Assembly (NCBI GenBank): GCA_938015455.1
Contig: CALLPL010000006.1
Span: 1 to 64,000 of the forward strand
DNA: 64,000 bases
DNA from: an uncultured Candidatus Altimarinota bacterium
GTDB taxonomy: Bacteria > Patescibacteriota > Gracilibacteria > BD1-5 > UBA6164
Direction of reading: 5' to 3'
In this document: positions 58,799 to 64,000 of the stretch, piece by piece
Numbering within the stretch: position 1 is the first letter of the stretch
Layout of the letters: every line of letters begins with the position of its first letter
The notes under the pieces: model-generated
Databases searched by the model: none
Told to the model about the DNA's origin: nothing
What the model saw: only the letters and a program-made list of their open reading frames with translations
Translations under genes and position numbers: made by a program

Positions 58799-59833
58799 AT
58801 GAACTTCTTAAAAAATTATTTTTCAAGTATGCTCCTAATTGGGCTAGCATATATGATATATACTCGAAGTAATTTTCATCCAGATTTCATAAGTGGTACT
58901 GCTACTATAAACATACTTGAACTCTCGTTTCCTATAATCTGGGTCTTCTATACTGTTATAGCCTTATATATAATACTCCTCGTGCCCTACTACCTCACAT
59001 ATCCATATGCAAGCAAAGCTCGTCTTGCCCTCAGGTATATGAAGAGAGTTATGATAGGAGATCATACAAAAAATGAAAAAGAAAAAACAGCAGTACTAGC
59101 AATCATCGTAAAGCTCTTTTTTATACCCCTCATGCTTGTGTGGCTCACAAACCATATAGTAAACATGATGAATAATCTCTCTAATAGCTATAGAGACATA
59201 GAGCTTCTTTCTACCGATTTTTTAAACTTTTTTAACATGCATTTCTTTTGGACGGCTTTTAGCCTCATCCTCTTTGTTGATGTATTGTTTTTTACACTCT
59301 GATATCTTATTGAGACTCCTTTTTTTAAAAATACTATTAAGAGTGTAGAGCCTACTATTATTGGTTGGGCTGTAGTTATACTCTGCTATCCTCCGTTTAA
59401 TAATATGACTTCGAATTTCGTCTCCTGGTATTCAACAGACTTTCCAAGCTTTGCTAATCCAACCGTCCATCTTGTCCTAAATTTTTCTATCCTTATTCTC
59501 ATGGCTATTTATGCATGGGCATCATGGGCTCTCGGACTCAAGGCAAGTAATCTCACGAATAGAGGAATTGTAACAACAGGCCCATATAAATATATTCGTC
59601 ATCCTGCCTATATTTGCAAGAATACTGCTTGGCTCATAGGAGGTATCCCCATGGTTTACGTAGCTATGACTAGCGAATCACTCTCTCTCATAACTGTTCT
59701 CTTTTGACTAAGTACGTGGGCCTTTATATATTACCTCAGAGCTATGACCGAAGAAAACCACCTCTCAGCTGATCCTGATTATATAGCCTATAAAAAACAG
59801 GTCCCTTATAAGTTTATCCCTAAGGTCTGGTAA
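58799..59833 (+). CDS. Isoprenylcysteine carboxyl methyltransferase-like membrane protein
   Basis: The 344-residue product has seven or so hydrophobic segments and the ICMT/PEMT C-terminal motif: GIVTTGPYKYIRHPAY (SAM-binding GPY..RHP) and TEENHLSADPDYIAYKKQVP with conserved acidic E-E. Enzymes of this membrane family methylate lipids or prenyl-cysteines; in bacteria the substrate is often unknown. Only two UGA-Gly codons are used. It converges with the giant surface protein gene. Confidence 0.82.
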
Positions 59834-59938: not shown

Positions 59939-62900
59939 TTATCTCGCTACTTTTGTTGAATCTAAGTATTCTCCAACGAACTGACTCACAAGTGGAGCTG
60001 GTTTATGGAATATACCTGAACCAAAGCTAACTACGGTACCAACTGAGAGTTGATCTCCGTCTTGAGAAATATAATTTCTATTCTGTACAAGATCTTGGAT
60101 ATCACCGTAAAGTGATCCATTCACTACGAGCTGTTTTCCAGAGTTTTGAGATTCTATCGATCCTCATTGTCCTCAAACGGGAATAGTAATATATGTTCCT
60201 GAAAGCTTCTTTACATCTTTATCTATAATGATGTTACCTCCCTTTACTACAAAGGCTATATTTTCTGTTGTATCAATAGCACCGTTAATAATGAGATCTC
60301 ATCCCCCCTCTACAATAAATGTAGTAGAGCCACTGATTGGAAGATCCGATATGCTATTAACAGTAACATTTTTATCACTTACTACATAAACGTTTGAGAG
60401 TCCGTTATAGTTTCGCGTAAATCATGTAACATTGTCTGTTATTGCAGTTGCAGTTACTGATGTAACTTTATTTACATCTGCCTCATAGTTAGTTTGTACA
60501 TCTTCTACATTTTGAACTATAGCAGTACCTTCAACAGCATCTGTTGTCGTATCAATAGTTTCAACGAAACTTGATGTTCCTTCATTTTCACCTGAAACAG
60601 ATGCACCTACGAAGTTGTTATCCTTACTATTAGTTTCAGTAATTGTGTTACCAGCACTATTATCAGTACCGAGAGTAACCGTTTTTACATCACTGGTAGT
60701 AGCGGAACTATTCTTTACATAACTTGTTCCTCAACCTACCGTTGCAACTGCTGGTCTAGCTACACGAACATCGAGATTCCCAGCAAAGTATGCTCTATCA
60801 TAGAGAACTCCATCGTCCTTAATAGTTGTTGCTATTGTTTCTGTTCCATAATCTTCACCTGAAGCAATTCCAGATTTATTAGATGTATAGGTAGGGTAGT
60901 TTGTAAACTCTATTCTCTCTCCTGGGTAAATGATTCCATCATAATGGTTATTAAGATTCATACATCTCGTAGTATCATTTAACACATTTGCTGGGTTTGA
61001 GATACTTCCTCCAAAGACTGTTCTATTCTGAACGGTTGTTGTACAGAGCTCATCAAATGAGAGGTCATACTCAGAGTTGTTGTAAATATATGGTACTTCT
61101 CCTTTTGTTTCTAGTATTCTAATATTATCTCCAACTATGTAATGTCCTTTTGGTCCAAATATTATTTCTCCATCATTTGGAAAGGTAAGTACACAGCTAT
61201 CATCATCTACACAGCTTGGTGGAACTCCACTAGAACTACTACTTGAGCTACTACTAGATGAAATATTTGGAATCTTACATTGAGAGTTACAAGAGTATTG
61301 TGGGTCTGCATTATTAGCAGTACCAAGATCACATTGCTCTCCTGATTCTACAACTCCATTTCCACATACTGGCACTACACCAACTGTTGTCTCACAAACA
61401 GATTTTACACCATCCCAAGCAACTGTACCATCGTTTACTGTTTTATTTGCTCTATCATGAGTCCTACAGCTAGCATACGCTTCACCACATGAGAATGTTG
61501 CTTCATATCGTCCTGTTTGAGAATTTCTTTCAGCATTTGCAAAACTTTCTGTTATGCTACCAGCAACATTTCCACAAGTTAACATGAATGATCCTACTCG
61601 AGAGTTACCTGAACATGTTACTGTATTTCCTGTTTTAATAATATCTCTACATTCTGGTCTTCCTCAAGAACTAGAAGAAGAACTACTAGAAGAAGAACTA
61701 CTAGAAGAAGAATTACCTTCTGGAACTATAACTCTAGAGTCATCATCATCACTTACTGTTACTGTCGTATCTCCAACTGGGTTAGCTGATACTTCAGCTA
61801 CATTTGTATAGTCGTCTACCGTTCCAGTAACGCTACATTCGTAACTAAACATTTCTCCTGGTTGAAATACTGCGTCTGTATGATCTCCACTTCCAGTAGT
61901 AACAAAGTTTGTCCATGTAGATGGAGTTGTACTTGGTAGAGTTACAGGTCCAGCACATGCTGCTCCAAGAGCATCTGTGAGAACAATATTTGTGAGATCA
62001 ACATCACCATCATTGGTAACGGTTATCTTAAATACTGCTGTTTGACCTGCTGCTACTGTCTGAGTATCATTTCCTACTGAACCATCTTGATCAATAGCTG
62101 TAGTATTTGCATCTGTCTTGTCTATTGCGATTGATGGTCCTCCTACTGTTACAGGAGCACATCCATCTGGATTATTTCTTTCGTCATCATCATCACATGT
62201 TGTTGGTGGTTCTGGTGTATCACAATCAGCTCCATCATCACATACAGTTGCTGCATTTTTAATTGTTCCCGTTGCACCTGCTGCTACTGTAAATGTAATA
62301 TCATATGATACTGAAGCATCTGGAGCTAGGCTTGCAATTACTTCGTTTAGTATTGCAACTCTCGTTCTACTTGGATCAAGAGTCCAATCACTATCAGCGA
62401 GTATTAATTCAGCTGGGAAATGATCCTCTATCTTTTGATCTGTAACCGTAGTGTCTCCAATATTTTTTACAGTAATTGTAAAGTCTACTGTGTCTCCTAC
62501 TGCTACGTTCGATGATTGACCATCTGCAAGTCTCTTTATAAGTTCTAGGTCAGAGTTTTCCTCAAAAGTAATTACTTCTGGGTCATGATCATCTTCGTCA
62601 CCTCCTGGATTACACCCATCACCGATATCATCATTAACTGGTGTTCCATCGTTTCCAGAATTTGCATCTGGATCTGAGTCACAGTCATCTCCACTATCAG
62701 CTGAGATTTCTGCAAGATTTACTATAGGACTTACTGCATCTGCATTAATAGTAAATGAGATTGGAAGGGTTACACTTTGACTGACTGGGATATTTGCAAC
62801 TGTTTGAGTTGCGTTTCCTCCACTCATAGTCCATCCATTACCTGCAACAAGTGTCAGTCCTGTAGGAATATAATCTGTTATAGTAACTGATCCTGAATCA

Positions 62901-64000
62901 ACATCACCTTGATTTGTTACCACGATATCAAAGTTTACATTTCATCCTGCGCTGAGGTCTCACTGAGATGTTAGTGTTTTAATAAGGGCTAAGTCATATA
63001 CCTCAGGGAGGTCTACATTAATTCCTTCAACATCATGATCATCTTCATCTCCACCTTCGTCACATCCTTCACCTATATCATTATTTACTGCACCTGTTGC
63101 TCCTGTTTCACCATCTTGATTTCTATTAATTCCATCTGGAGTAGAGTCACAGTCTTGACCATCGTCCTGACTAATCTCAGCAAAGTTATTAATCCTTGCA
63201 GGAGCATTTTCATTAATAGTGAACCCAATAGTGAGTGTCTCTGATTGTCATGCTGCAATACTTGAGACAAGCTTTGTTGCTGTAGTTCCTGCGTTTGTCC
63301 ATGAACTATCTGTAAGCGTCAGACCTGTTGGAATATAATCTGTTACTTCGATATTTGAAGCAGGAAGAGTTCCTTGGTTAAATACTTCGATAGTAAAGGT
63401 AACAGTATCTCCGATACTGTATGGACCGTTACTTGCAATAGTTTTTCTAAGAGCTAGGTCATATACCGTATCAACAACGACAACTTCTGTTGTATCTTTT
63501 GAATTAACTGAATCATCAGAGGTTATACCCTTAGCGTTTACAGTAGCTTCGTTTGTGTAGTCAGATTGAGAATCATCTTTTTTACATGTATATTCAAATG
63601 ATTCACCTGGTTCAAGTACATTATTTGATGCACTTCCAGTTGATGATCCGTTTACAACGAATCCCATAAATGTAGTTGGTACTGTATTAGGAAGTGTAAC
63701 TGATCCAGCACAGTTTGGCGCTATTGTATCCGTGAGAGTTATACTCGTAAGAGCTTCGTCACCATTATTAGTAACAATAATCTTAAATACAGCTTCATCA
63801 CCTGTGTTTACAGTTTGAGAGTCATTTCCTCCAATAGAACCATCCTGATCAAAGTCAGAGTTCGCATCTATTTTTTCTAAAAGGATCGATGGATTTGGAA
63901 GTTCTACATTAATAGATTGTATATCATGATCATCTTCATCACCTCCTGGGTTACATCCATCACCAATGTTATTATTTAACATACCATTTTGAGCTGTTTC
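59939..64000 (-). CDS. Giant DUF11-type surface protein, partial
   Basis: The frame is open for 1354 codons and continues past the right edge, so the N-terminus is missing. It holds repeated DUF11-type beta domains (two near-identical: PSI..KxDAN..DQDGSxGxND, GDxAVFKIxVTNxGD), three copies of an acidic DIGDGCNPGGDEDDHD linker, a Ser-only linker, a Cys-rich DUF4215-like motif (VCGNGVVESGEQCD near 61360), another Ser linker and a C-terminal beta-repeat region (DLIINGAIDTTENIAFVVKGG). UGA-Gly is rare here (about nine of roughly 100 glycines). It is most likely exported and fibre- or S-layer-like; no anchor is seen at the C-terminus. Confidence 0.88.
61668..61720 (-). repeat. 15-base tandem repeat coding for a Ser linker
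   Basis: The plus-strand unit GAACTACTAGAAGAA is repeated with an incomplete first copy, coding only Ser (TCT and AGT codons). Each unit adds five residues, so copy change keeps the frame. A second, less regular Ser run lies at 61229-61259. Confidence 0.65.

Follow-up and report, generated by a model that had tools for sequence, protein, structure and literature searches.

A giant DUF11-repeat protein of a BD1-5 bacterium as a candidate secreted contact fibre with a conserved base, a variable stalk and an exchangeable N-terminal domain

Contig CALLPL010000006.1 (C6 below) of an uncultured Candidatus Altimarinota bacterium of the order BD1-5 in the Gracilibacteria (assembly GCA_938015455.1) is 94,397 bases long. 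Its first 64 kb, hereafter the window, break off within the gene of a giant putative surface protein, which is the subject of this analysis. UGA codes for glycine (code 25) in this genome of 1.33 Mb. Under this code an open frame on the minus strand extends inward from the edge of the window as far as a stop at 59939 (59939-64000), with 1353 residues and 9 UGA codons in the window, confirming as real the frame of more than 1354 residues proposed in the initial annotation. Extension of the contig to the N-terminus, the check suggested there, placed the full gene at contig positions 59939-66535 (minus strand, 2198 residues, 13 UGA), with residues 846-2198 in the window. The protein starts with MKNVCKIIFLVILTGLISIPSASA, followed by AVVC, a Sec signal-peptide-like sequence as judged by hydropathy and by eye; the initial annotation had named the lack of a signal peptide as the result that would contradict it. 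A short lipoprotein-like frame directly precedes the start of the gene. From the N-terminus to the C-terminus, the protein consists of an N-terminal domain of about 145 residues, nine DUF11 domains, serine linkers with a second cysteine motif, and a C-terminal module of 425 residues.

The DUF11 call made from the letters alone was borne out. PF01345 (DUF11/CLIPPER) scored 282.1 bits against a Pfam gathering cut-off of 24.6, in nine stretches covering about residues 286-1612, and the closely related DUF7507 also scored over six stretches. The nine copies are of a short and a long type. Five of them lie in the window on the minus strand, as placed by Pfam matches and alignment: copy 5 (residues 878-1021, long type, 63473-63904), copy 6 (1021-1176, short type, 63008-63475), copy 7 (1176-1324, short type, 62564-63010), copy 8 (1324-1463, DUF11/DUF7507, 62147-62566), and copy 9 (1463-1612, long type, 61700-62149). 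The near-identical 100-residue domains described earlier were an overstatement, as the nine copies are 16-62% identical in pairwise protein comparison and the best pair in the window reaches 53%. At the DNA level, repeats longer than 200 nucleotides within the gene are 63-74% identical, and one pair of 91 nucleotides is 85% identical.

The Lys and Asp columns were invariant across the nine aligned copies, and an Asn candidate was present in each; the Asn of the long-type copies was placed by motif, its column not being aligned across the short and long types. For two copies, a regular expression took the neighbouring Asp for the Asn, while the conserved Asn is visible in the alignments. The DUF11 profile matched the solved isopeptide-forming CLIPPER structure 9IFR weakly (E 0.023), with the K, D, and N positions in register. 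The bond residues of 9IFR are K715, D748, and N806 (PMC12617251). Since the three positions occur in all nine copies and are in register with 9IFR, a row of nine internal Lys-Asn isopeptide bonds is predicted in the stalk, including a K/D/N triad in copy 5. Stalk length varies among relatives. We read 42 orthologues of the giant in 41 loci, 35 of them with a closed start. These 35 range from 408 to 2742 residues, and their length tracks the number of DUF11 copies (rho 0.86), which runs from 0 to 10 per orthologue when counted with a profile built from the giant's own copies, a profile that may miss divergent ones.

The stalk is accompanied by acidic, serine-rich, and cysteine-rich segments, located by pattern search on the minus strand. 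The window contains three copies of the GC..GGDEDDHD linker, as the initial annotation stated, namely NIGDGCNPGGDEDDHD (63923-63970), DIGEGCDEGGDEDDHD within copy 6 (63032-63079), and DIGDGCNPGGDEDDHD within copy 7 (62582-62629). A fourth lies upstream of the window, and the first in-window copy reads NIG, not the DIG given there. The serine linkers are likewise present, with 15 Ser at 61667-61711 and 11 Ser at 61229-61261. Between these runs lies the cysteine-rich segment CGNGVVESGEQCDLG (61271-61369), with its CGNG...GEQC motif at 61331-61366. The NCBIfam cysteine-rich acidic repeat myxo_disulf_rpt (TIGR02232) matched here at 17.1 bits, below its cut-off of 20.8. The Cys-rich motif is present, and its suggested likeness to DUF4215 is not established: PF13948 had no match in the genome, and the control genomes gave none either.

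The C-terminal module (59942-61216, minus strand) is conserved across the order in profile searches of relatives. Among 22 such modules no Pfam family passed its cut-off, and one of the 22 gave a weak Bactofilin match (E 0.0047). Searched against PDB, the module profile gave a best E of 0.43, and phmmer with the whole giant gave no significant match. The AlphaFold2 (AF2) model of the whole module was weak, with a mean predicted local distance difference test (pLDDT) score of 55.8. An immunoglobulin (Ig)-like β-sandwich half occupies model residues 16-153 (60758-61171, minus strand; block pLDDT 43-83). Its VIA-align Z scores were about 7 in tied matches, and 9ifr (CLIPPER) was among many tied fold-search matches without being singled out. 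The other half, together with the C-terminal helix (PAPLVSQFVGEYLDSTKVAR; 59942-60445, minus strand), is modelled as β-solenoid-like. The last 168 residues modelled alone gave a better result than the whole module (mean pLDDT 76.0, predicted template modelling score 0.75). Against solved β-solenoids, VIA-align gave this model a best Z of 7.0 (5kkd, 127 residues, 3.7 Å) and 5.5-6.2 for other structures, a range of 5.5-7.0 that may reflect merely a common arrangement. Foldseek found nothing under E 1 with the solenoid half, and bactofilin was absent among its listed fold-search matches. The protein ends in a conserved F..EYL...KVAK/R stretch, modelled as a helix, and does not qualify as a sortase substrate by LPxTG motif, hydrophobic stretch, and basic tail.

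Profiles of the module matched in 56 of the 60 genomes of the order, including all 43 with a completeness of 90% or more and a contamination of 5% or less; one of these matches, in G037, covers the solenoid part only. One near-full copy per genome is the common state within the giant's own family, with two copies in G021 and G022, and the other families of the order show several matches confined to the second half of the module. Phylum-wide, 49 of 379 genomes matched, the giant's own included, and the other 48 matches were partial, many of them in the solenoid part. A signal-peptide-like start was found at the hydropathy threshold in 29 of the 35 closed orthologues and was lacking in the shortest, L102. 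In a 581-aa orthologue (L088:2304-4049, minus strand), a lipobox-like start (LFIFFSC) replaces the plain signal peptide.

Upstream of the giant, a gene for an LPxTG-type surface protein, the partner, lies on the same strand in 30 of the 33 loci with enough upstream sequence (8 of the 41 loci had too little and were excluded). Two of the three loci without it, L104 and L088, carry one elsewhere in the genome. All 60 genomes of the order gave a match to the partner profile (in G020 the anchor end only, in G006 residues 1-83 only). Outside the order it matched in 2 of 378 other genomes of the phylum, and there at LPxTG ends only. The partner next to the giant, P0003, has the features of a sortase substrate, with LPETG, a hydrophobic stretch, and an RKKA end; it scored 18 bits with TIGR01167 (cut-off 15.9) and 17.7 with Gram_pos_anchor, below the cut-off of 20. 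Among 30 partners, LPxTG is present in 20 and only xTG in ten. The genome contains four sortase-family matches, and a second copy of the partner family at C12:34472-35059 (G000; 222 bits, profile positions 1-195).

A large middle gene usually separates the partner from the giant. In this genome it codes for 422 aa (C6:66849-68117, minus strand; L001:8850-10118) with a Gly-rich tail and no Pfam match. PG_binding_1 was found in 5 of 9 middle genes scanned (this genome's own and those of 8 of the 16 other listed loci), 4 of them over the cut-off. Further upstream, yidC is present in 25 of 41 loci, preceded by pyrH in most loci examined.

The low use of UGA pointed out in the initial annotation holds for this gene. 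UGA codes for 13 of its 208 glycines, compared with 616 of 2057 (30%) on the contig (binomial P 2e-17), the fourth lowest share among 49 genes with at least 15 glycines. In this genome's ribosomal-protein genes (15 counted) the share is 25 of 199, and it is even lower than the giant's in genes that, from their sequence, we take to be those of S12, DnaK, and trigger factor. In codon likeness to ribosomal proteins, the giant ranks sixth among 81 genes and seventh without glycine, and the middle gene third and, without glycine, first. Because its codon use is ribosomal-protein-like beyond glycine too, the giant is probably strongly expressed in its own genome, in agreement with one of the two explanations offered for the low UGA share. 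In each of the 13 loci counted, the partner had a lower UGA share than its neighbours. It was uncounted in 8 of 21 loci, where the sequence contained no partner or the open reading frame (ORF) filter had removed it, and a recount of 17 partners recovered four (L047, L049, L059, and L060) that were likewise below the share of the other genes. Another giant frame on the same contig (C6:84234-89999, minus strand; L002:12234-17999), of 1921 aa and open at the end of the stretch, has UGA for 57 of 159 glycines, slightly above the contig mean and unlike the DUF11 giant.

The second explanation offered was recent gain. Acquisition from a donor that does not use UGA for glycine would account for the low UGA share and for the slightly raised guanine-plus-cytosine (GC) content in parts of the gene, which reaches 0.405 in segments of 200 codons. 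However, a related gene stands behind the same partner across the order, the codon use resembles that of the genome's own ribosomal proteins with or without glycine codons, and the presumed S12, DnaK, and trigger factor genes have still lower UGA shares. The GC content of the whole gene, 0.377, is close to the 0.358 of the contig. We therefore consider such an acquisition extremely improbable. Recent gain of the whole gene is largely refuted, and the gain of single stalk domains is possible.

The N-terminal domain of the giant is closed by a CGDG cysteine motif and exists in at least three types, A, B, and C. In hhalign comparisons, type A aligned with the partner ectodomain at a probability of 96.8% (E 2.9e-10, 125 columns). 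The other pairs reached 96.0 for A-B (74 columns), 97.1 for A-C over 39 columns only, 93.6 for B-C, and 92.5 for C-partner, and three unrelated control pairs gave 0.06-0.13%. In addition, the giant of L090 matched the partner profile directly (E 2.1e-6). By these profile comparisons, the ectodomain of the LPxTG-type partner and the giant's N-terminal domain are homologous and share an ancestry. Against PDB, neither the partner profile nor that of the N-terminal domain gave a significant match (best E 0.08 and 0.21). In the longest orthologue (L091:3795-12023, plus strand; 2742 aa, nine DUF11-like matches), the type A domain lies at residues 264-389, not at the extreme N-terminus.

The types were mapped on a yidC tree of 24 of the 25 typed loci, in which several branches are weak; the yidC of L087 was too short and was left out. 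The labels A, B, and C need 7 changes on this tree. With unclassified rows as a fourth type the count is 10 (least possible 3), which includes an artificial class since the unclassified tips are a mixed bag, and 63 of 200 shuffles needed as few. Taken singly, type A needs 7 changes and type B 5; 119 and 248 of 500 shuffles, respectively, required no more. When only strongly supported branches are counted, 6 and 5 changes are still forced. As these counts are no lower than in many shuffles, the tip type is not clustered by descent. The giant's own tip is 60% identical to that of L089, from another genus of the same family, although their C-terminal modules are only 31% identical, and it is 27-34% identical to type A tips of its own genus. 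L089 has no DUF11 match, and it resembles the giant as far as residue 288 and again from 1724 onwards. Tip exchange together with block insertion or loss of the stalk would be the simplest account of these data.

One homologous domain in two genes of the same cluster might also point to a structural envelope component, in which the giant and its partner co-assemble, through the shared domain, into a wall-bound or S-layer-like coat and the giant serves as a spacer or spike rather than an adhesin. The order-wide presence of the module and the partner, the likeness of the giant and the middle gene to ribosomal proteins in codon use, and the low UGA share of the partner in all counted loci would agree with such a coat. 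Nevertheless, unclustered tip types are unexpected for an assembly interface, the partner tracks yidC somewhat better (r 0.44), and its profile match to the S-layer protein SlpX (E 0.08) was not significant. We regard a structural coat as unlikely.

The same homology would fit a giant mounted the other way round, with its N-terminal domain docked on the wall-anchored partner and the C-terminal solenoid as the distal binding end. The giant's C-terminus has no recognisable anchor, and β-solenoids occur also in binding proteins such as ice-binding proteins, both in keeping with this orientation. However, over the 21 loci used for these correlations the C-terminal module tracks yidC best (r 0.66, and 0.57 when restricted to the 12 loci of type A), with a weaker correlation for the N-terminal domain (0.31 over the same 12). 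This is the opposite of what would be expected for a fast-changing C-terminal binding end, and the reverse orientation seems to us very unlikely.

Taken together, we think it fairly probable that the giant is a secreted contact fibre resembling the fibrillar adhesins, built of a conserved base, a stalk whose length can be adjusted, and a tip open to exchange. The initial annotation had proposed a host- or cell-contact fibre. Its first half, a secreted surface fibre, is well supported because of the signal-peptide-like start, the nine stalk domains of a type found in fibrillar adhesins, and the LPxTG-type surface-protein gene upstream. As for contact, such a role is plausible and agrees with the exchange seen among the N-terminal types. 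In such a fibre, Sec would export the giant and the conserved C-terminal module would hold it at the cell, possibly tethered by the partner or by the middle protein, which is peptidoglycan-binding in several relatives. The cross-linked stalk would then carry the N-terminal domain outwards, where the tip might touch another cell or surface. Lineages could vary reach through the number of stalk domains and specificity through tip exchange. A wider proposal, which we advance tentatively and with more doubt than confidence, is that the gene cluster is the order's shared contact apparatus, with a conserved base, a cross-linked adjustable stalk, and an exchanged tip that shares an ancestor with the wall-anchored partner. 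If so, tip type would set the attachment targets of each species, and host range might be read from the genome.

Several results weigh against the contact-fibre reading or parts of it. LPxTG was absent in 22 aligned giant C-termini and a hydrophobic C-terminus in 35, no known adhesive Pfam domain was found in searches of the giant and its N-terminal domain, and comparison of the structure models brought up no clear relative (best Z 7.1). A DUF11 match is present in only 14 of the 35 closed orthologues, which makes the stalk dispensable. A weak correlation of the tip with yidC persists within type A (P 0.025 over 12 loci), and the tip pattern could reflect old paralogy with losses. At L056:3564-8176 (minus strand), two giant orthologues stand adjacent in one genome, both with type B tips, which bears on paralogy. 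yidC is beside the giant in 0 of 7 loci of family f2 and is therefore not an order-wide neighbour. As for expression, the partner ranks only 18th of 81 genes without glycine, and the DnaK-like gene with its very low UGA share 54th, so codon use is an imperfect gauge. Low UGA use as a rule for the giant across relatives was rejected, as no more than 12 of 21 loci showed a share below that of the neighbouring genes (Wilcoxon P 0.34).

The kind of protein is known from the CLIPPER adhesins and from DUF11 giants of Vampirococcus. Similar to the CLIPPER fibrillar adhesins, the giant has a tandem DUF11 stalk midway in a long secreted protein and shares the Lys/Asp/Asn positions of 9IFR; unlike them, its N- and C-terminal modules reach the cut-off of no Pfam family, it has no known sorting signal, and an LPxTG-type partner lies upstream (PMC12617251). 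With 2198 aa and a repetitive stalk of nine DUF11 domains, it has the length and the stalk of a fibrillar adhesin as described in PMC9210967, where an anchor is present in only around half of the positive set. In Vampirococcus lugosii (Absconditabacteria), a predatory bacterium of the candidate phyla radiation, giant proteins, some with DUF11, have been proposed for the fibrous surface and host recognition (PMC8080830). The likeness to our giant is by description only, and the available excerpts mention no such gene cluster. As in periscope proteins, a stalk of varying length carries an N-terminal domain; in contrast to them, the stalk copies diverge (at most 62% identity) and the length differences known here are between species (PMC8201768). 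Periscope repeats are highly identical and were searched at 70% identity in PMC9210967, a level that the nine copies, at 16-62%, do not reach.

A PTD-repeat surface protein of a BD1-5 genome, also gracilibacterial and extracellular, has been proposed for attachment (PMC6851277). Its identity with the giant is not supported, as no ORF with six or more PTD was found in loci L041-L060; G024 has a member of the giant family without PTD repeats. The best PDB match of the giant's DUF11 profile was the grappling hook protein GhpA of Aureispira (9flp, E 1.8e-4), a contact filament of a predatory bacterium. The match is at the repeat level only, and the base and tip profiles gave none. No description of this gene cluster was found in the available excerpts of the literature searched on the protein, the organism, and the grappling hook. 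New here, in our reading, is a cluster shared across an order, in which the tip and the base are modules without a name and an LPxTG-type partner carries a domain homologous to that tip.

A dependence on other cells is assumed for Gracilibacteria, and the giant family offers a concrete target in the search for a contact molecule. Attachment in Gracilibacteria has been attributed to pili and/or flagella (PMC11452946). The family is matched in all 43 near-complete genomes tested of the order (in one by the end part only), is strongly codon-adapted in this genome, and has an exchangeable tip; judged from these sequence features, the giant is a good candidate for the structure that makes contact with other cells. 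The tip and the partner ectodomain, of about 150 residues each, could be expressed as probes on mixed communities. The finding also provides a setting for two conserved modules that Pfam does not name.

Further features were observed beside and outside the gene. In the window, a convergent gene (58799-59833, plus strand) codes for a 344-aa membrane protein, presumably methyltransferase-like, with a relative in 9 of 20 relative loci. On contig C36, a 2353-aa frame (L085:4336-11394, minus strand) has a signal-peptide-like start and DUF7507 and SdrD_B repeats. This giant repeat protein contains its own Sortase domain at residues 2153-2268, which scores above the Pfam cut-off and in which candidate His, Cys, and Arg were assigned by eye. 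On contig C20, a 544-aa protein (L084:2889-4520, plus strand) joins DUF11 to three T4SS_pilin stretches, and frames with similar hydrophobic ends adjoin it.

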